From: Streptococcus oralis
GTDB taxonomy: Bacteria; Bacillota; Bacilli; Lactobacillales; Streptococcaceae
DNA: 39,229 nucleotides
Direction of reading: 5' to 3'
Assembly: GCF_001578945.1 (NCBI RefSeq)
Contig: NZ_KQ969550.1
Coordinates: 53,773 to 93,001 of the forward strand
Shown: in pieces, positions 2,815-38,934 of the stretch
Layout of the letters: every line of letters starts with the position of its first letter
Position numbering within the stretch: the stretch's first letter is position 1
Translations under genes and position numbers: made by a program
The notes under the pieces: generated by a model
What the model saw: the letters and a program-made list of their open reading frames with translations, nothing else
The model's database searches: none
What the model was told of the DNA's origin: nothing

Positions 2815-4836
2815 CTATTTTCCTTTCATAATGGTCATCGAAACACGAGATTCCTTCTGTGCTTGACGGTAGAGAGTCAGTATAGCACTAACGAGAAAAA
2901 CTGATAAGGTTACAAGCCCAATCACCACATCCCGACTACGCCAGATAAAGAGGCTTGCACCGAGGATAAAACTAGCAAATTGACTAATCATATACTGAGC
3001 GTGTGTTTCAAAAAAGCGCAAGCCTGAGATGCGTTTAATCAAAATCTCGCGACGGAATTGTTCAAAATAAAGAAGATTCACAGAATAAAAGAGAAGTAAA
3101 GAACTCGCGATTCCAATAATAGCTCCTAAAATAAGGGTTAGAGTTTCTGTTTGAACTTCATAGTAACGTGCGAGGTAAACACTTCGTCCCTCCTTGAGAT
3201 AGGATACTTGATCATAAATTCCTGCATTTTTCAATAGTTTAATCCCGTCTTCATATCCTTTGACAAAGATATTCTTACCAGCATTGATAGACCAACTAGA
3301 TAAGGATGTAAAACTATCACCTGTAGAAGTTGGCGTGAATACCACTAAAATCGGATCCGTCAAATATTGAGTGGATACGGGGTTCTCACCGTTATTATAA
3401 ACAAACCGCTTTTCTCCCATTGACAGATAGCTAACGTGCGCTTTCATCTCATAATCCAAAGGAGCACTTGCCTCCTCACCAGATTTTCCATAATAACTCA
3501 ATCTTTCTTCAAAGAGTTTTTTTAGTTCTGCTTCTTGAGAGCGTAAATGTTCTGGGAGCAAGAGGACAAACTCACCTTTTTGGAGATGGGCTAACTTCTG
3601 TTTGGTCTCAGCATCTACCACGACCTTTTCCTTCTCCAAATAACTGGGGCTAACATAGAGCGTATTAGCATCTGGACTATAGGTATCCAGTGTCTCTCCC
3701 TGTTCATTTTTTCCTTGTGGATTGGCAAATTGGAGCAGATTATCCTTTACATAAAGAGCTTGTTCTTCTTCGATTGCTTCCTTGGCAAAGGCATACCACT
3801 TGCTCTGATTTTCTGCATCTTTTCCTCTATCACCGAGCCCAAAGGAAATCTGATAATAATCTGCTCGGTCTTCCCATGCTTGCTTGGACAGTTGGAGTTC
3901 CTGTAAACGCTGGTAAGAAGTTAAGCCAGTCTTGACTGCATAACCTACTGTAAAGACAGCAACCAACTGACACAGCAAGGTCAAGGTCATCAAACGTTTG
4001 AGAGGCAAACGTCCTTTGAGTACAGGAACCAAGACCTTGTAGCTCAAGCTCATCAAGTAGAGCAGGCTCAGTAGGAGCGAAATTCCCAATAAAAAGAGAA
4101 GATAAAGCCCCACTCCGATACTAAAGGTTGCTAAAAGAACAGGATAAAAGAGCCCTTGGCTGATGAGGACAGCACCTCCCACTATAAGGGATAAAACCCC
4201 AGCTAAGCAAAGCCACTTGACATCATCGTATAGGGCACTTCTCATAATGGACAAGAGGGTCTGTCCTGAAAAGAGCTGAATCCCTGCAGCCCGCATCTCC
4301 TTCACCCGAGTGATGATCACCATGGCAAAGAAAGCTAATCCAAATATAGCTAGACTAATCAACAACAACGGATTTAAAGCAATCCAAAAAGCTAGAAGAT
4401 ATGGGGGAGTTTTGCGATCTACAATCGCTTTATAACCTAAATCATCTAATTTTGCAGCTAATTTCTCCTTGGTCAATGAACCCGATAAGAGGAGGTAGCT
4501 ATTGAGAGGATCACTCCGTTCTCGGCTCTCTTGACTGGCTACTTGAAACTCTTTGGGTAAGTTTCCTTGTCCATAAGTTGCATAGGTGAAGTTGGTCCTT
4601 CCATCCTTACTCGGCTCTACTATCCGTCTAGCTATCAAACTCTGCTCCGAGCTTGCAAACTTCTCCAACTCTCGCTCAAACTCCTCACGAGTCGGCTCTT
4701 GTGCCCCTTTTTTAACACGTAATAAAGATACGGAGTCGTAACTAGTATAGAGATACTGAGGGGCACGTAAGATAATGATCCAAATGAAGAAGCAACTGAG
4801 AAAAATAGTAGACAAACAAATAAATAGTTTCTTCAT
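2815..4836 (-). CDS. Bacteriocin-associated integral membrane protein (DUF1430 / FtsX-like)
   Basis: This 673-residue protein has a hydrophobic N-terminal helix (about residues 4-24), an extracellular stretch, a group of membrane helices at about 148-315, a second large polar domain (about 320-560), and a final set of helices (about 560-660). That is the layout of MacB/FtsX-like permeases. The family usually appears beside lactococcin-972 genes under the name bacteriocin-associated integral membrane protein. Its ATPase partner follows immediately, and the bacteriocin gene precedes it by 71 bases containing a perfect hairpin. A GAGGAG site lies just before the ATG. Family assignment is from recalled gene order and topology; no transported substrate is visible in the sequence. 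Confidence 0.85.
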   Translation of the reverse strand: MKKLFICLSTIFLSCFFIWIIILRAPQYLYTSYDSVSLLRVKKGAQEPTREEFERELEKFASSEQSLIARRIVEPSKDGRTNFTYATYGQGNLPKEFQVASQESRERSDPLNSYLLLSGSLTKEKLAAKLDDLGYKAIVDRKTPPYLLAFWIALNPLLLISLAIFGLAFFAMVIITRVKEMRAAGIQLFSGQTLLSIMRSALYDDVKWLCLAGVLSLIVGGAVLISQGLFYPVLLATFSIGVGLYLLFLLGISLLLSLLYLMSLSYKVLVPVLKGRLPLKRLMTLTLLCQLVAVFTVGYAVKTGLTSYQRLQELQLSKQAWEDRADYYQISFGLGDRGKDAENQSKWYAFAKEAIEEEQALYVKDNLLQFANPQGKNEQGETLDTYSPDANTLYVSPSYLEKEKVVVDAETKQKLAHLQKGEFVLLLPEHLRSQEAELKKLFEERLSYYGKSGEEASAPLDYEMKAHVSYLSMGEKRFVYNNGENPVSTQYLTDPILVVFTPTSTGDSFTSLSSWSINAGKNIFVKGYEDGIKLLKNAGIYDQVSYLKEGRSVYLARYYEVQTETLTLILGAIIGIASSLLLFYSVNLLYFEQFRREILIKRISGLRFFETHAQYMISQFASFILGASLFIWRSRDVVIGLVTLSVFLVSAILTLYRQAQKESRVSMTIMKGK

Positions 4837-22296: not shown

Positions 22297-22844
22297 CTAT
22301 TTTTCCTTAAACCATTCCATCCCCGGTGAATCAAGAATAATCTTCGTCAACTGTTGTGGAGTTTCCTGTGCACCATTGACAATCCAGTCCACGATAAGCC
22401 CTGTCAAGCCAGATACATACATAGTGACAGCATAACGTTCAGGCATATGATAGGCATCCACAATTATAGTACGCGACCGAGGCGTTGACTCAATCATACC
22501 TAAAAGAAAGGTACGGATATTGTCCGAAAAATGAAACATCGGATTCTGGGCAATCTCAGAAAAAAAGAAATATTTTCCCTGAAGTAGAGTAAAACCTCTT
22601 CAAGTCTTTCCTGTTGGTTGAAGGTCTCTTTTCTCAAAATCGTGCGAACAATTCTTAAGGTTTCTTCCCTTAATTGCTCTAAAAAATCTTGTTTGTCTAA
22701 ATAATGAAGATAGAAAGTCGAACGATTCACTCCCGCCTTTTTTGTTAATTGGCTGATAGAAATATCCTCTACACTTTTGGTTGCTAGGAGCTGAATAAAA
22801 GCTTCTTTTATATCTACTTTGGTTGTGGTTTGTCTTTGTTGCAT
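22297..22844 (-). pseudogene. TetR-family regulator, frameshifted
   Basis: The first frame, from ATG 22844, gives a TetR helix-turn-helix (ISISQLTKKAGVNRSTFYLHY) and continues to VLLYFRENISFF, then goes out of frame. The second frame gives MFHFSDNIRTFLLG through MIESTPRSRTIIVDAYHMPE to SPGMEWFKEK, a normal TetR C-terminal domain. The break falls in a run of seven A (plus strand 22560-22566); an eighth base would restore a continuous protein of about 182 residues reading ISFFSEIAQNPMFHF. The gene diverges from an ABC transporter, and three CAACAnnnTGTTG-like palindromes lie in the gap. It is probably the repressor of that transporter, now inactive unless the tract slips or the base is a sequencing error. 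Confidence 0.85.
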
Positions 22845-22859
22845 AGCTACTCCTTATTT

Positions 22860-22872
22860 CAACATCTTGTTG
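22860..22872. promoter_or_regulatory. TetR operator 1 (tetR side)
   Basis: CAACATCTTGTTG is a CAACA-N3-TGTTG palindrome. It lies just downstream of the tetR promoter (TTGACA 22904-22909, 16-base spacer, TATAAT 22882-22887, minus strand), as expected for autorepression. Confidence 0.75.
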
Positions 22873-22881
22873 TCGTTTTTT

Positions 22882-22973: not shown

Positions 22974-23058
22974 CAACAGATTGTTGTTTTTTGTTGTAGT
23001 ATCCACTTAACAATTTGTCTATAATAGACTCCGTTATCAAAAAAACAACAGGTTGTCG
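22974..23058. promoter_or_regulatory. TetR operators 2 and 3 flanking the ABC transporter -10 box
   Basis: CAACAGATTGTTG (22974-22986) and CAACAGGTTGTCG (23046-23058) share the CAACA-N3-TGTTG form with operator 1; the third has one mismatch. A perfect TATAAT -10 (23020-23025) for the transporter lies between them, without a clear -35. A repressor bound to both sites would bracket the promoter. Confidence 0.75.
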
Positions 23059-23087: not shown

Positions 23088-23789
23088 ATGGCTTATATCG
23101 AAATGAAAAATTCATATAAACGCTACAAAACAGGAGATGTCGAAATCGTCGCCAATAACAATATCAACTTTGAAATTGAAAAAGGCGAACTGGTCATTAT
23201 ACTTGGTTCCTCTGGGGCAGGGAAATCAACTGTCCTGAACATCCTAGGTGGGATGGATACCAATGACGAAGGACAGGTCATCATTGATGGAAAAGACATC
23301 TCTAACTATAATAGCAAGGAATTAACAACTTACCGTCGTGATGATGTTGGTTTCGTCTTTCAATTCTATAATTTGGTTTCTAACCTCACTGCCAAGGAAA
23401 ACGTGGAATTGGCTTCTGAAATCGTCAAAGATGCCAAGGATGCCGAACAAACCTTGGTCGATGTCGGTCTTAGAGAACGGATTAACAACTTCCCAGCTCA
23501 GCTATCTGGAGGGGAGCAACAACGGGTTGCCATAGCGCGTGCTGTTGCTAAAAATCCTAAAATCCTTCTCTGTGATGAGCCTACTGGAGCCTTGGACTAC
23601 AATACAGGAAAACAAGTCCTTAAAATTCTCCAAGATATGGCACGTGAACAAGGAGCAACGGTTATCATTGTTACCCACAACGGCGCACTAGCTCCAATTG
23701 CTGACCGTGTCATCCGTATGCACGACGCCCAAGTCAAAAGTATTGATCTCAACCCAACTCCTCAGAGAATCGAAGATTTGGAATACTAG
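23088..23789 (+). CDS. ABC transporter ATPase (MacB/LolD type)
   Basis: This 233-residue ATPase has Walker [10 protein letters not shown] at residues 40-48, Q-loop FVFQFYNLV, signature [14 protein letters not shown], Walker [13 protein letters not shown] and H-loop VTHN. The DEPTGALD form is typical of the MacB/LolD/FtsE group, which work with FtsX-type permeases. The permease follows 14 bases later. AAGGAG precedes the ATG. Control is by the TetR operators upstream. Such pairs export peptides, antibiotics or lipoproteins, or sense envelope stress; the substrate is not visible. Confidence 0.95.
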
Positions 23790-23803: not shown

Positions 23804-26800
23804 ATGAGTGAAAAAACCTATTGGAAAGATGTTAAAAAAGCCTTCTCCGAATCCAAAGGACGAGCCGTTTCCATCGCCTCTCTTATGGCGCTAGGCTCCT
23901 TTGCCCTAGTCGGTCTCAAAGTCACCACCCCAAACATGCAGGAGACTGGTCAGCACTTTTTCGCCGAACATAAAACTGCTGATCTGGCTATCATCAGTAA
24001 CTACGGACTTGATTCATCGGATCAAGACCTACTCGCAAGTCTCCAAGATAAAGCGACTGTTGAGTATGGATACTTTAAAGATGTGGTTATCAAAGACAGC
24101 TCCACTGCTTTCCGACTTTTCTCAAAACCAAAAAAATTGTCCACATATGATATTGCAGAAGGTCGACTTCCTGAGAAAAGTGATGAAATCGCCATCTCTG
24201 CTGCATATCAAGGACGGTACAAGATAGGGGATACCATTAACTTCACCGAAAAGGAAAGTGCCAACGGCCAAACAGTCCTCAAGCGCAACCAATTTACCAT
24301 CACAGGATTTGTCAACTCCTCCGAGATTCTCTCTCGTGTCAATATGGGACGTTCAACAGCTGGTTCCGGTGAATTGCACGGCTATGCTGTCGTGACTGAG
24401 GACACATTTGACTCCGATGTCTATATGATTGCACGGATTGCTTACAAAAACTTGCGTGACCTCAATCCTTACAGCCAGACTTACACAGACAAGCTCTACG
24501 CAGCAAAAGAAGATGTCAAAAAACTCATAGTAAACGAGCCTGAAAAACGCTTGGCAGAGATCAAACGAACTGCTCAGGACAAGATTGATGATGGAAATAA
24601 ACAACTCCAAGATGCTGTCCAAGTGCTGACAGATGGGCAAAATCAGCTCCAAGAAGCTCAGAAAAAAATCACCGAGGGACAACAACAGCTGCAAGACGGA
24701 CAAGAGCAACTGGCTGATGGCCAAGCTCAACTTGATCGTGCTCAAAGTCAACTAACCGATGGACAAGCCAGACTAGAAGATAGCCAATCACGATTGTCAA
24801 TAGCACAAGGGCAACTGCAAGACGGACAAGCTCAGATTTTAGAAAAAGAAGCTCAACTCCAAGAAACAGCTAAACAACTGCAAACTGCCAAAGACCAACT
24901 AGAACAAGGGCAAACTCAATTCCAACAAGCCGGTGCAGAGATTGCTAGCAAAGAAACTGAACTTCAGGCAAGTAAAACACAATTAGATACTATTGCTAGC
25001 GAACTAGATAGTACAAAAGATAAACTAGATAGCACGGCTACAACATTAGAAACACAAGCAAGCGAACTAGCTACTCTTCGTGCCCTTCCTTCTACTATTC
25101 AAGACGAAGAGCAACGAAAATCACAAGAAAAGGAACTCTCACAAAAAGAGACAGATCTTAGTCAAGCCCAATCACAATACCAAGAAAAACTCCATCAATA
25201 TACCGTTGGGAAAACAAGCTATCAGCAAAAATTAGAAGAATACAATCAAGCTAGCCAACAACTGGAAGTCGCTAAGGCAACTCTAGCTCAGAAGCAAGCT
25301 GAGCTCCGTGAAAAATCGGCCCAATACCAAGCTGGACTTTCACAATATGAAAATGGAACTACAGCACTAGATACTGCCAAAGAAAACTTGGCTGAAAAAG
25401 AAGAACTTTATCAAAATGGTACAGCTAACTATCAAGAAGGTCTCGCTACATACCAGGAAAAATTAGCTGACTTCCAGGCTGGCCAAGTCCGTCTAACAGA
25501 CGCTCGTACAACCTTAGCTCAAAAGGAAACTGAGTTAGCTGAAGCCCAAAAAATCTTTGCTCAAAAGGAAAAAGAGTACCAAGAAGCCAAGGAAAAAGCA
25601 GATCCAGAAATCGAAAGCAAACGCAACGAACTGAAAGATGCCCAAGAGCGTGTGGATCTCCTCTCAACACCCACTTATCAAGTATTTACCCGTCGAGAAG
25701 TCCCAGGATCTGAAGGATACATTTCATACGAAAACAATGCATCCGTTATCCAAAACGTCAGCAATATCTTTCCTGTTGTTCTCTACTTCATCGCTGCCTT
25801 GGTGACCTTTGTAACCATGGGGCGCTTCGTTGAAGAAGAACGTATCAAAGCAGGAACCTTCAAAGCACTGGGCTACCAAGACAAAGACATCATCCGTAAA
25901 TTTGTCATCTATGGACTCGTGACGAGTATGGTAGGTACGCTAATCGGAATCATCGCAGGGCACACCCTCCTGCCAAGTATCATCTACAATACCTACAAGT
26001 CAAAAATTGTACTAGCACTGATGGAATTGCACTTCTACCCTGTCAAATCCTTCCTTGCTATCCTGCTTGGTCTCCTTTCTGCTGTATTGCCTGCTTACCT
26101 CGTGGCTAAGAAAGAGTTGGGAGAAAAACCTGCCCAACTCCTCCTTCCAAAACCACCGACTGCTGGCTCTAAAATCTTCCTTGAGCGCATAAAGCCTCTT
26201 TGGAAACGCATGAGTTTTACGCAGAAAGTCACTGCACGAAATATCTTCCGTTACAAACAACGAATGTTGATGACTATCTTTGGAGTCTGTGGCTCTATCG
26301 CTCTCCTCTTTGCAGGACTTGGTATTCGAAGCTCGATTGCAGACCTGAACAATCGTCAGTTCACAGACATTATCCGCTATGATATGATTGTCGCCCACAA
26401 TACCAATACAACTCCAAAAGAGAGCGAAGAACTCGATAAACTTCTCAAGGATTCAAATGTCAGAGAGCGCCTCCAAGTACACTACGAAACGCTCCACAAA
26501 ACAGCTGGTCGCAACAAGGATAATCAAGAAATCACAGCCCTAGTTATCCAAAATAAAGACCAAGCCAACTTTAGTGACTACATTCAACTAAAAGACCGCA
26601 AGACTGGTCAGGAACTGTCACTTGATCAAGACGGTATCATCCTCTCAGAAAAAATTGCTAATCTTACTGGTGTCAAGGTCGGTGATACCCTTACTGTTCA
26701 AGACAAGGATGGCAAGGACATGCAGTTGACCGTTTCAGGAATTGCTGAAATGTATATGAGCCATTTCATCTTTATGAATGAAGAAACTTATGAAAAAGCT

Positions 26801-27364
26801 TTTGGAAAAGTTGCCACTGACAATGCTCATCTAATCACATTGACCGACCACTCTAATCAGCTTGTTGCGGATATGGCAACTGAGTTTATGGATCTTGAAA
26901 GTGTTCAAGGGGTTGTTCAAAACACGACCCTTAAATCTCAAGTTGAAACCATTGTTAATTCCCTTAATCGGGTTATGGGAATCTTGATTGCTGTATCTGT
27001 TTTACTGGCCATTGTCGTTCTCTTTAACTTGACCAATATCAACGTTGCCGAACGTATCCGTGAACTCTCTACTATTAAGGTTCTTGGCTTTTACAATAAA
27101 GAGGTCACTCTTTACATCTATCGTGAAACCATCTACCTCTCCATTGTCGGTATTCTTGTCGGATTTGGTCTCGGATTTGCTTTCCATCATTACATGGCAA
27201 GTATAATCCCTCCAGATACTGTAATGTTCAACCCAGCAGTCAGCTGGAGCATCTATGCTGTTCCAGCAGCGATTGTGGTTGCAATCCTCACTACTCTAGG
27301 CTTTATTGTGAACCGTTGGCTCAAGAAGGTCAACATGCTCGAAGCCTTAAAATCTGTTGAATAA
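23804..27364 (+). CDS. FtsX-type ABC permease with giant extracellular coiled coil
   Basis: This 1186-residue permease has one N-terminal helix (about 20-38), a large extracellular region, then an FtsX core of three helices (about 650-775; FPVVLYFIAALVTFVTMG first), a fifth helix near residue 820 (MTIFGVCGSIALLFAGLGI), a second extracellular domain (about 845-1040), and three final helices (IAVSVLLAIVVLFNLTNINV onward). Residues about 245-615 are a long coiled coil built from repeats like QLQDGQ, QLADGQ, QLTDGQ and later AQKEAEL/YQEKL types. Most MacB-like permeases lack such an insert; coils of this type occur in YhgE/Pip-like and some streptococcal ABC permeases. It is paired with the preceding ATPase. 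Confidence 0.93.
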   Translation: MSEKTYWKDVKKAFSESKGRAVSIASLMALGSFALVGLKVTTPNMQETGQHFFAEHKTADLAIISNYGLDSSDQDLLASLQDKATVEYGYFKDVVIKDSSTAFRLFSKPKKLSTYDIAEGRLPEKSDEIAISAAYQGRYKIGDTINFTEKESANGQTVLKRNQFTITGFVNSSEILSRVNMGRSTAGSGELHGYAVVTEDTFDSDVYMIARIAYKNLRDLNPYSQTYTDKLYAAKEDVKKLIVNEPEKRLAEIKRTAQDKIDDGNKQLQDAVQVLTDGQNQLQEAQKKITEGQQQLQDGQEQLADGQAQLDRAQSQLTDGQARLEDSQSRLSIAQGQLQDGQAQILEKEAQLQETAKQLQTAKDQLEQGQTQFQQAGAEIASKETELQASKTQLDTIASELDSTKDKLDSTATTLETQASELATLRALPSTIQDEEQRKSQEKELSQKETDLSQAQSQYQEKLHQYTVGKTSYQQKLEEYNQASQQLEVAKATLAQKQAELREKSAQYQAGLSQYENGTTALDTAKENLAEKEELYQNGTANYQEGLATYQEKLADFQAGQVRLTDARTTLAQKETELAEAQKIFAQKEKEYQEAKEKADPEIESKRNELKDAQERVDLLSTPTYQVFTRREVPGSEGYISYENNASVIQNVSNIFPVVLYFIAALVTFVTMGRFVEEERIKAGTFKALGYQDKDIIRKFVIYGLVTSMVGTLIGIIAGHTLLPSIIYNTYKSKIVLALMELHFYPVKSFLAILLGLLSAVLPAYLVAKKELGEKPAQLLLPKPPTAGSKIFLERIKPLWKRMSFTQKVTARNIFRYKQRMLMTIFGVCGSIALLFAGLGIRSSIADLNNRQFTDIIRYDMIVAHNTNTTPKESEELDKLLKDSNVRERLQVHYETLHKTAGRNKDNQEITALVIQNKDQANFSDYIQLKDRKTGQELSLDQDGIILSEKIANLTGVKVGDTLTVQDKDGKDMQLTVSGIAEMYMSHFIFMNEETYEKAFGKVATDNAHLITLTDHSNQLVADMATEFMDLESVQGVVQNTTLKSQVETIVNSLNRVMGILIAVSVLLAIVVLFNLTNINVAERIRELSTIKVLGFYNKEVTLYIYRETIYLSIVGILVGFGLGFAFHHYMASIIPPDTVMFNPAVSWSIYAVPAAIVVAILTTLGFIVNRWLKKVNMLEALKSVE

Positions 27365-36306: not shown

Positions 36307-38520
36307 TTATTCTGAATCTTTTTGAGTAATAGTAAATTCTTTCTTAGGTTTGTGATCCTTGTGATGACGAGGACGGTGTGGTTTGTCAGATTTTTCACCC
36401 TTTTCGTCCTGCTCTGATTTTGGTGGGCGAGGAAGGAGAGCCTTCATAGAGGCATCGATACGGCCTTTTTCATCAATCTTGATAACCTTAACATCAACTT
36501 CATCACCGATAGCTACCAAGTCCTCGACACGGTTGATACGAGTCCAAGCCATTTCAGAAATGTGCACAAGTGCATCTGTCTTATCAAAGAGATTTACAAA
36601 AGCACCAAATTTCTCGATACGAACAACCTTAGCATGGTAAACTTCATCCACTTTGGCTTCGCGAACCAAGCCAGCGATGATTTCTTTGGTACGGTTAATG
36701 GCATCTTGGTCGCTAGAGTAGATAGAAACATTACCTTCTTCGTCGATATCAATCTTAACGCCTGTTTCAGCGATAATCTTGTCAATGGTTTCTCCACCTT
36801 TACCGATGACAATCTTAATTTTGTCCACATCAATCTTGATAGTATCAATTTTCGGTGCAGTTGGAGCCAATTCTGGACGAACTTCTGGAATGGTTGCTTC
36901 AATCACATCAAGAATTTCAAAACGTGCTTTCTTGGCTTGAGCAAGGGCTTCTGTCAAGATTTCTGCTGTAATCCCTTGAATCTTGATATCCATTTGAAGA
37001 GCTGTAATCCCGTCACGAGTACCGGCAACCTTGAAGTCCATATCTCCAAAGTGGTCTTCCAAACCTTGGATATCTGTCAAAACAGTGTAGTTACTTCCAT
37101 CTGAGATAAGACCCATAGCAATACCAGCTACTGGTGCCTTGATTGGCACACCACCAGCCATAAGGGCAAGAGTTCCCGCACAGATAGAAGCTTGAGAAGA
37201 TGAACCGTTTGATTCTAAGACTTCAGCTACCAAGCGGATCGCGTATGGGAATTCTTCCAAACTTGGCAAGACTTGCGCAAGAGCACGCTCACCAAGAGCA
37301 CCGTGACCAATTTCACGACGACCAGGCGCACCGTAACGACCAGTCTCCCCTACAGAGTATTGAGGGAAGTTATAGTGGTGCATAAAGCGTTTCTTGTACT
37401 CTGGGTCCAAACCATCGATGATTTGAGTTTCTCCCATCGGAGCCAAAGTCAAAACTGAAAGAGCTTGAGTTTGTCCACGAGTAAAGAGACCGGAACCATG
37501 TACACGAGGAAGATAGTCAACTGCTGCATCAAGCGGACGGATTTCATCGACCTTACGCCCGTCAGGACGCACCTTGTCTTCTGTGATCAAACGGCGCACT
37601 TCAGCGTGTTCCATTTGTTCCAAGATTTCAGCCACATCGCGCATGATACGGTCAAATTCTTCGTGGTCTGCATATTTTTCTTCGTAAACAGCCGTTACTT
37701 GATCTTTCACTGCTTGAGTTGCAGCTTCACGAGCCAATTTTTCTTCTACTTGAACCGCTTTTTGGAGGTCGCTGTTGTAGGCTGCGATGATTTCAGCTTG
37801 CAATTCAGCATCTACATGAAGCAATTCCACTTCTGCTTTTTCTTTACCAACTGCAGCAACGATTTCTTCTTGGAAGGCAATCAGTTCTTTAACGGCTTCG
37901 TGTCCTTTAAGAAGAGCTTCCAACATGATCTCTTCTGACAATTCTTTGGCACCAGACTCAACCATGTTGATAGCATGTTTGGTACCAGCTACGGTCAATT
38001 CAAGAAGTGAACGTTCTGCTTGCTCTTGAGTCGGGTTGATGATGAGTTCGCCATCCACATACCCCACTTGTACTCCAGCGATTGGTCCGTCAAACGGAAT
38101 ATCTGAGATAGAAAGCGCTAAAGATGAACCAAACATAGCCGCCATTGGAGCAGAGGCATTTTCATCGTAAGAAAGAACCGTATTGATGACTTGCACTTCG
38201 TTACGGAAACCTTCCGCAAACATGGGACGGATAGGACGGTCAATCAAACGCGCCGTCAAGGTCGCATCCGTTGAAGGACGACCTTCTCGCTTCATAAAGC
38301 CACCAGGGAACTTCCCAGCCGCATACATTTTTTCTTCGTAGTTGACTTGGAGGGGGAAGAAATCTCCCGTTGCCATCTTTTTCGACATAACGGCAGCAGT
38401 TAAGACAGTTGACTCACCGTAACGAACCACCACAGAGCCATTAGCCTGCTTAGCAACCTGACCAGTCTCTACGATCAACTCACGACCCGCAAAAGTCGTT
38501 TGAAACACTTGTTTTGTCAT
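36307..38520 (-). CDS. pnp: PNPase, polynucleotide phosphorylase
   Basis: The start is the ATG at 38520 ([20 protein letters not shown], 737 residues), preceded by AAAGGGG; the frame continues 38 codons upstream without a better start and those are judged non-coding. The domains are RNase PH 1, an all-helical linker, RNase PH 2 ([21 protein letters not shown] region), KH ([19 protein letters not shown]) and S1 ([20 protein letters not shown]), then a basic tail rich in K, H and P. It degrades RNA 3' to 5' using phosphate. It heads the minus-strand operon to mrnC, with a TATAAT -10 at 38545-38550. Confidence 0.97.
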
Positions 38521-38544
38521 TTTAATCCCCTTTGGATTTAATAA

Positions 38545-38550
38545 ATTATA
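38545..38550 (-). promoter_or_regulatory. pnp -10 box
   Basis: TATAAT on the minus strand, 24 bases before the pnp start codon, is a perfect -10 hexamer. A clear -35 is not present (TCTTGA with 17-base spacing is the best). The resulting leader would be very short. Confidence 0.5.
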
Positions 38551-38677
38551 CGCCTTGCCTACAAAAATCAAGATACCAAGGACGTCAAAAGCAAAGTAAA
38601 AATAGGAAACTGACCAAGTCTTCGATGAAGGCAAGACAGTTTATCTTTTTTACACAGCTTTTCGACCGGGTTCAAAT

Positions 38678-38934
38678 CATTAGAAAGACTTGATGCTAAA
38701 GCATCTAAGGCTTTCACGCTAATCGCTATTAGGCGATTCGCTAAATGCTTTACTAACTCGCTCGTCAAATAACATCGATTTGACTCCCTCGGGTCGCTCA
38801 AACCTTCGGTTTGTCATTAGAAAGACTTGATGCTAAAGCATCTAAGGCTTTCACGCTAATCGCTATCAGGCAATTAGCTAAATGCTTTACTAACTCGCTC
38901 GTCAAATAACATCGATTTGACTCTCTCGGGTCGC
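38678..38934. repeat. Tandem pair of ~120-bp non-coding repeats upstream of pnp
   Basis: A unit starting CATTAGAAAGACTTGATGCT at about 38679 recurs at about 38815, period about 136 bases. Each unit runs through the palindrome GATGCTAAAGCATC, CTTTCACGCTAATCGCTAT and TACTAACTCGCTCGTC to CTCTCGGGTCGC-like ends. The copies differ at only a few bases. The spacer holds a small AAACC-TTC-GGTTT hairpin. No credible open frame covers it. The short reading frame across it on the minus strand starts with TTG and lacks coding features. Confidence 0.8.

Follow-up and report, generated by a model that had tools for sequence, protein, structure and literature searches.

In a 39,229-nucleotide stretch of the Streptococcus oralis genome (contig NZ_KQ969550.1, positions 53,773 to 93,001; source genome 2.05 Mb), hereafter the window, a plus-strand gene (23804..27364) encodes a two-halved permease of the FtsX/MacB type, 1,186 residues long, and adjoins the gene of an ATP-binding cassette (ABC) ATPase. 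The reading that we favour, at a probability of about one half, is that the two proteins form a type VII ABC system, of the MacB/LolC/FtsX superfamily, whose first extracytoplasmic domain bears a zipped antiparallel hairpin about 27 nm long, and that this hairpin acts as a lever. Judged from the protein sequence, the coiled coil in the permease is real. Its hairpin architecture rests on sequence together with prediction, namely the heptad arms, the turn at mid-coil, the matched arm lengths, the ATPase, and the TetR gene with its palindromes.

The permease and its predicted heptad hairpin

The permease is a fused pair of halves, and the coil is found only in its first extracellular domain. The FtsX-type transmembrane domain matches in two stretches (1.6e-29; 102.8 bits against a cut-off of 25.5), MacB_PCD matches the second half (residues 822-1000; 1.6e-9; 38.8 bits against 27), and the hydropathy plot and the AlphaFold model agree on eight membrane helices, four per half. 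The first extracytoplasmic domain, ahead of the coil (residues 56-241; 23969..24526, plus strand like all features of the gene), is modelled as strands and helices with a block predicted local distance difference test score (pLDDT) of 82-95, and the second, without a coil (residues 847-1039; 26342..26920), is placed by the MacB_PCD match and by AlphaFold strands; the bounds of both were set by hand. Both halves match the structures of MacB, LolC/E and HrtB, so that an FtsX domain, a MacB/LolC-fold extracytoplasmic domain and a partner ATPase are all present, as in type VII (MacB/FtsX) systems. MacB proper is a different matter, since the ATPase is unfused, the permease is duplicated, and the MacB equivalog model falls far under its cut-off for both proteins.

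An initial annotation of this DNA, made from the letters alone, had described a MacB-type transporter with a long extracellular coiled coil at 24541-25650, and this has held up, the location to within about 10 residues: the stretch rich in Q, E, A, L and K covers residues 249-622 (24548-25669, 374 residues). The repeat unit, which it had read as short hexapeptide-type motifs such as QLQDGQ, is the heptad. The outward arm (residues 245-427; 24536..25084) keeps a single register through 24 consecutive heptads (residues 261-422); its large core position is hydrophobic in 24 of 25 heptads (19 of them Leu), and its other core position is Gly or Ala in 15 of 26. The return arm (residues 435-618; 25106..25657) holds 22 consecutive heptads in one register from 445 to 592, the large core position being hydrophobic in 23 of 27 heptads (11 Leu, 10 Tyr, 2 Phe) and the other being Ala, Gly or Lys in 22 of 26. 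Antiparallel coils that pack tightly typically have small residues at one core position ('Alacoil'). The hydrophobic period is 3.50 in each arm, at a power that none of 1,000 shuffles reached for either. Because the outward and return registers differ, a turn must sit between the arms, and the putative tip turn (residues 428-434, with Pro429; 25085..25105) is non-helical in both the full-length and the coil-only models described below; a mid-coil proline is enriched family-wide, and in Streptococcus cristatus DD08 the position of Pro429 is taken by Leu. Tyrosine is concentrated in the return arm across the family, at up to 6.6% per decile compared with 0.8-1.7% in the outward arm, and in the window protein the tyrosines of the return arm occupy core positions.

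The coil-only AlphaFold2 model (421 residues, 19 sequences; mean pLDDT 82.9) consists of two unbroken helices, 245-426 (182 residues) and 435-618 (184), with an 8-residue joint, and its tip is a bare turn. Both ends of the coil join the same membrane-proximal domain, so that the rod of some 50 nm envisaged in the initial annotation for a fully helical chain would reach only half as far, about 27 nm. Since one polypeptide holds both permease halves, with eight hydrophobic segments in all, one hairpin per permease is expected, in place of the dimer of rods proposed there. Compared with the Protein Data Bank (PDB), the coil model is best matched by the PrgA stalk (418 of 421 residues, Z 20.3, root mean square deviation (rmsd) 12.9, TMq 0.65), followed by Smc5/6 at 16.7; a further match, to the Bacillus subtilis Smc arm, covers 252 residues at 2.8 Å with a Z of 12.8, and a Z of about 13 is uninformative for long helices according to the structure-search tool's own note. 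For the whole model YbbAP ranks first (Z 22.4 and 19.8; 667 residues, rmsd 8.8), followed by BceAB, MacB, the S. pneumoniae transporter 5xu1 and LolCDE. A PDB sequence search with the permease gave YtrF and one coil match.

The full-length AlphaFold2 model (60 sequences; mean pLDDT 81.0, predicted template modelling score (pTM) 0.67) divides the coil into helices 245-312, 324-427, 435-543 and 557-618, with confidence below 50 in two zones that face each other, residues 307-329 in the outward arm (24722..24790), a possible hinge, and residues 540-559 in the return arm (25421..25480), and this counts against a continuous hairpin. It could be argued from these zones, which lie near glycines at 292-320 and 539-560, that the hinged coil folds back into a four-helix mast of about half the height; SMC-type arms do have elbows, and the MukB elbow and a folded cohesin elbow are among the structural matches. 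Nevertheless, the zones are absent from the coil-only model, where the helices are unbroken and no residue has a pLDDT below 50, and the heptad register runs straight through the low-confidence zone in both arms, so that we consider a fold-back quite unlikely. Folding into a short bundle had been raised in the initial annotation as an argument against its own view; it does not appear in the coil-only model, while the loss of confidence in the full-length model keeps part of that argument alive.

The heptads also bear some likeness to the Leu-x-x-Gly repeat TIGR03057, although the match is weak: the best single stretch scores 16.8 bits against a cut-off of 18.6, and one stretch is counted above the cut-off, at 20.7, together with its neighbours. 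The same genome encodes a YhgE/Pip-family protein with many such heptads (L006 895-3444, minus strand), which is another candidate for a wall-spanning coil and which carries both the N- and C-terminal YhgE/Pip domains; the window protein, for which 16 NCBIfam families are listed, has neither of the corresponding membrane domains among them. The resemblance to YhgE/Pip could be taken to mean that the permease is a surface display used by phages or other cells, as YueB or Pip are, with transport a secondary role. The repeat match is a heptad likeness and not shown homology, however, and use as a phage receptor would explain neither the ATPase nor the TetR gene, which makes this reading very improbable. 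The permease has a single PADLOC match, to a coiled-coil stretch of JetC (22 bits), which we took as coiled-coil likeness, and a defence system was thus set aside.

Matched arms and reach among relatives

Relatives were taken from one scan of named genomes, in collections with one genome per species, as the best 80 of 556 loci; 65 of the 80 were kept once near-identical proteins had been removed, and together with the window protein and a short paralogue from its own genome they make up a set of 67 coils, whose lengths were counted between the anchors R249 and Y625. In 55 of the 67 a proline falls at mid-coil (fraction 0.44-0.56), and in 55 of the 67, as opposed to 33% of shuffled coils, a search blind to proline places a single register switch at 0.40-0.60 of the coil. 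The lengths of the two arms correlate with r = 0.97 in the 41 of 67 coils that have clean heptads under a length-normalised threshold, which was picked after the first results were known. Arm counts anchored on motifs are independent of that threshold, as the tip is recognised by its sequence and no midpoint is assumed.

Two groups of coils could be counted in this way. The first consists of seven coils, from Blautia, Clostridium, Breznakia, Lacticaseibacillus and three Schleiferilactobacillus, in which a 58-residue tip, cut at a constant distance from a Y-[TND]-P motif, aligns ungapped; the arms measure 129/118 (twice), 168/157, 199/188 and 231/220 (three times), and the difference is always 11. 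The second consists of nine different streptococcal and Abiotrophia coils, eight of them the profile seeds and one found at 12 bits, with arms of 159/158 (coils of 317), 173/172 (345) and 180/179 (359), and here the difference is always 1. Counting each further length as one change, three in the first group and two in the second, at least five changes thus affected both arms to the same extent, as a zipped hairpin would demand. That arm lengths changed together in two groups gives evidence for a hairpin at the level of sequence, and such equal change plays the same part for a protein as compensatory change does for an RNA stem. The gaps within arms in our alignment A4 are all multiples of 7 (321 of 321 pairwise), a regularity that is partly forced by heptad alignment and was not used as proof. 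In the first group (L038, L039, L042, L069, L071, L080 and L101) the tip mostly reads NPxL ... YxPGM, with arms that vary from 118 to 231 residues around it, and it is a possible binding site.

Coil length in the set of 67 ranges from 69 to 509 residues. The window coil has 376 residues between the anchors, as do those of S. cristatus DD08, whose protein is the closest named relative among the matches listed (97% identity), and of a protein 66% identical to that of the window (G198). At E <= 1e-100, relatives with short or long coils occur in 221 of the 247 genomes that were searched within the window's genus, and long-coiled ones are found also in Listeria, Enterococcus, Clostridia, lactobacilli and Bifidobacterium; two paralogues are encoded in the genome of the window itself, one with a coil of 105 residues and a distant one that lacks a coil. 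In a tree built without the coil, by a quick method and with long-branch warnings, the window clade has 13 rows, some of them near-copies from two collections, with coils of 376 (three rows), 77 (five), 69 (two), 113 (two) and 119 residues, and the short or long character changed at least six times over 88 rows. Constancy of length, which the initial annotation had named as a point against its proposal, therefore holds in the three nearest proteins and fails across the genus. Its suggestion that repeat DNA allows the length to change did not survive: Tandem Repeats Finder gave no array within the coil, where direct repeats have 2-5 copies at 65-88% identity, and with weak direct repeats alone we rejected slippage-prone repeat DNA. 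The single array reported for the window (38677-38934; a 137-base unit, 1.9 copies, 96% matches) lies just upstream of the polyribonucleotide nucleotidyltransferase gene (36307-38634, minus strand).

Besides the low-confidence zones, a number of observations weigh against the zipped hairpin lever. The coil-only model has a pTM of 0.47, and the reach of about 27 nm was obtained from helix length (182 residues x 0.1485 nm), not from model coordinates. The register of the return arm shifts near Pro601, in its last three heptads near the arm base; since 24 of the 67 coils have a proline 24 or 28 residues ahead of the conserved Y625, a kink at the coil base may be common. The best register switch is off-centre in 12 of the 67 coils, and the arm-length correlation is 0.29 over all 67, which is weak because the switch finder fails on imperfect heptads, and 0.09 (n = 51) under a gain threshold that dropped mainly short coils. 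Thirteen further coils match the tip of the first group at 16-28 bits and not all obey its constant: L041 is off by 3, and the matches in Bifidobacterium and L092 are split, gapped or carry an insertion. The tip of the second group gave no match of at least 5 bits in the 317-residue coils of S. suis. In 27 of 65 relatives (upstream and divergent in 26) a profile built up from the TetR protein of the window picked out a TetR-like gene within four open reading frames of the permease; in the other 38, including all five Listeria loci, there was none within that distance. Finally, what the hairpin does is something that we infer, and its shape and oligomeric state are modelled.

The coils of 69-119 residues in the window's own clade, which would reach about 5-9 nm, belong to the same side of the balance. 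The order TetR-ATPase-permease is kept in S. parasanguinis with a coil of 77 residues and in L067 with one of 113, so that spanning of the wall cannot be a family-wide requirement, and a long reach would seem unneeded for the core activity. The spanning of the wall proposed in the initial annotation is, in this light, no more than geometrically possible at the computed 27 nm of the window protein. One relative appears to have lost the operon by deletion, unless it is misassembled: in the 11 kb examined around G067 (L124 2369-3827), the flanking genes are kept, a fragment of the TetR gene and the second half of the permease overlap, and neither an ATPase gene nor a coil lies between the two. 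Taken together, the short coils and this loss suggest that the long hairpin is probably essential neither to the cell nor to the core activity of the family.

Findings of this kind lead to an alternative in which the hairpin is a passive stalk or spacer that keeps the transporter domains clear of the wall or anchored in it, transmits no force and drifts in length. Length is indeed labile within the clade, the window protein has a bare turn at its tip, and the coil evolves faster than the core (45% compared with 71-78% identity between the window protein and G198). The tip of the first group, moreover, is conserved only modestly above its surroundings, which also speaks against the lever: identity between genera is 33% in the tip and 29% in the adjoining arms, the latter allowing a choice among five heptad shifts, with 40-42% at the base and 58% in the core. 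Against drift stand the equal arm changes in two groups, which imply that zipping is under selection, and the fact that the tip profile of the first group, made from clostridia and lactobacilli, finds the mid-coil of Bifidobacterium. We regard a passive stalk as somewhat unlikely, and as an explanation that stays strong because short-coiled relatives exist.

Possible mode of action and known systems

How a lever of this kind could work can be pictured from type VII systems in general, in which the effect of the ATPase cycle is transmitted to the extracytoplasmic domains (PMC12646458, PMC7668044). The cytoplasmic ATPases would rock the two extracytoplasmic domains, as in YbbAP, LolCDE and MacB, and because the hairpin is rooted only in the first of these, the stroke could swing or pull it as a lever within the peptidoglycan layer. 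The complex would most likely lift a hydrophobic or amphiphilic compound, such as an antimicrobial or a lipid, from the outer leaflet, and the presence of that compound would relieve repression by the TetR protein. The hairpin would then take the place of separate coiled-coil partners such as MacA and EnvC, holding or moving a partner, the wall mesh or the cargo, at a working distance set by its length. Going further, one can envision an ATP-powered arm that acts at a distance, a rigid zipped hairpin swung or pulled through the Gram-positive wall so that its site of action lies at the cell surface or close to it, its reach tuned by equal additions to both arms and with some lineages sharing a tip at different heights; this extension is rather unlikely. 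The partners on which type VII ABC systems act lie outside the membrane. Whether reach matters can be tested on the natural variants described here, whose computed reach extends from about 5 to about 38 nm.

The closest structural relative of the transporter part is YbbAP-TesA of E. coli (PDB 9GE6/9GE7), which likewise has one permease polypeptide, two MacB-like extracytoplasmic domains and a separate ATPase. YbbAP has been proposed to extract hydrophobic compounds from the inner membrane, with a 2:1:1 stoichiometry (PMC12646458), and by analogy with this and with a similar proposal for LolCDE the membrane work of the window system is probably extraction of a lipid-like or amphiphilic compound. 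YbbP differs in having 10 membrane helices instead of the 8 predicted here, the word 'coiled' does not occur in the YbbAP paper (PMC12646458), and the YbbP equivalog model gives the permease 23.3 bits against a cut-off of 999. No TesA-like protein was present among the scanned neighbours, the rest of the genome not having been searched. BceAB-type systems have a 10-helix permease with a single large extracellular domain, unlike the 8 helices and two domains of the window permease, and BceB is described as having no first extracytoplasmic domain (PMC12646458).

MacAB-TolC and LolCDE share the superfamily fold, and MacB pairs with a hairpin-bearing adaptor, MacA; no MacA-like adaptor was seen among the seven scanned proteins of the region. 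The window system differs from both in that its hairpin lies inside the permease, its ATPase is a separate gene and its halves are fused. FtsEX-EnvC is a type VII system that acts through an antiparallel coiled-coil hairpin with heptads, along which a conformational change has been proposed to be propagated (PMC7668044). In that system, however, the hairpin belongs to a protein of its own, EnvC, whose two long helices contain 12 and 9 heptads and which also has a LytM domain, whereas the window hairpin has 24 and 22 consecutive heptads, carries no further domain and is covalently part of the permease. Thus, what MacAB and FtsEX-EnvC hold in a separate protein is here built into the permease.

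Long coils are known from other machines as well. SMC, Rad50 and MukB are ATP-driven, and their arms are antiparallel coiled coils of great length that end in a hinge or hook domain; unlike the window system, these machines work on DNA in the cytoplasm. The length of the Smc arm follows a periodic pattern (PMC5344682). The enterococcal PrgA (PDB 6Z9L), the best match over the whole length of the coil, has a stalk of about 40 nm (PMC10588982), but it is anchored in the cell wall and has a protease domain and no transporter. In mycobacteria, the transporter MmpL5 has an extracytoplasmic coiled coil of its own, for which a role in building an export tube has been proposed (PMC12501195); it belongs to the trimeric resistance-nodulation-division pumps, and a single window hairpin could not form a tube alone. 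Among the matches listed in the open-access literature no paper on such a coil-bearing permease was found, and those on FtsX-like permeases of pneumococcus, S. mitis and Bifidobacterium concern expression lists or other genes.

The ATPase, the TetR gene and other loci

The ATPase (233 residues; 23088..23789, plus strand) is of the MacB/LolD/FtsE type (ABC_tran, 5.4e-37), with DevA, LolD, MacB and FtsE models among the best and none of the 25 listed exceeding its cut-off. Divergent from it lies a gene for a TetR-family regulator (22297..22844, minus strand; TetR_N, 2.5e-6), which is frameshifted: the open frame ends at 22500, the end of the gene being counted from the alignment with S. cristatus DD08, and a run of T has 7 residues in the window as opposed to 8 in that relative. 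The shorter run is either an assembly error or the outcome of natural slippage, which might derepress the operon. Three palindromes of the form CAAC-N(0-8)-GTTG, each a candidate TetR operator, were found in this region, CAACATCTTGTTGT (22860..22873), CAACAGATTGTTGT (22974..22987) and ACAACAGGTTGT (23045..23056). Three such sites in 243 bp compare with a mean of 0.013 in mono-nucleotide shuffles, none of 2,000 reaching 3, and the three relatives examined have 3 (S. cristatus DD08), 2 (S. parasanguinis) and 2 (S. massiliensis). The combination of the ATPase with a divergent TetR gene and palindromes suggests, from sequence, an inducible extraction or export system, since regulation of the repressor type would point to an inducible compound rather than to cell division.

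In Listeria monocytogenes the relative (L126 4038-11928) follows pheS, pheT and an ATPase gene and precedes MarR and MMPL genes; by eye the arrangement is the same at three other Listeria loci (L083, L094 and L102) and differs at L095. One L. monocytogenes record, searched whole, contains one full-length relative and four short matches at E <= 0.001. TimABR, the TetR-controlled tartrolon exporter of Listeria (timA and timB being lmo1964 and lmo1963), was considered as a characterised homologue and set aside as a loose analogy only, the sequence of TimB not having been compared. The biofilm-linked permease lm.G_1771 is a different gene: with up to 3 mismatches its quantitative PCR primers have no match at the locus of the relative in two records, and in one record they match elsewhere. 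In a second L. monocytogenes record (L132), a 1,071-residue frame about 2.6 kb downstream weakly matches the window coil and is probably the MMPL protein. Elsewhere in the window, at 2815-4836 on the minus strand, a 673-residue frame encodes a bacteriocin-associated integral membrane protein (TIGR01654, 674.5 bits).

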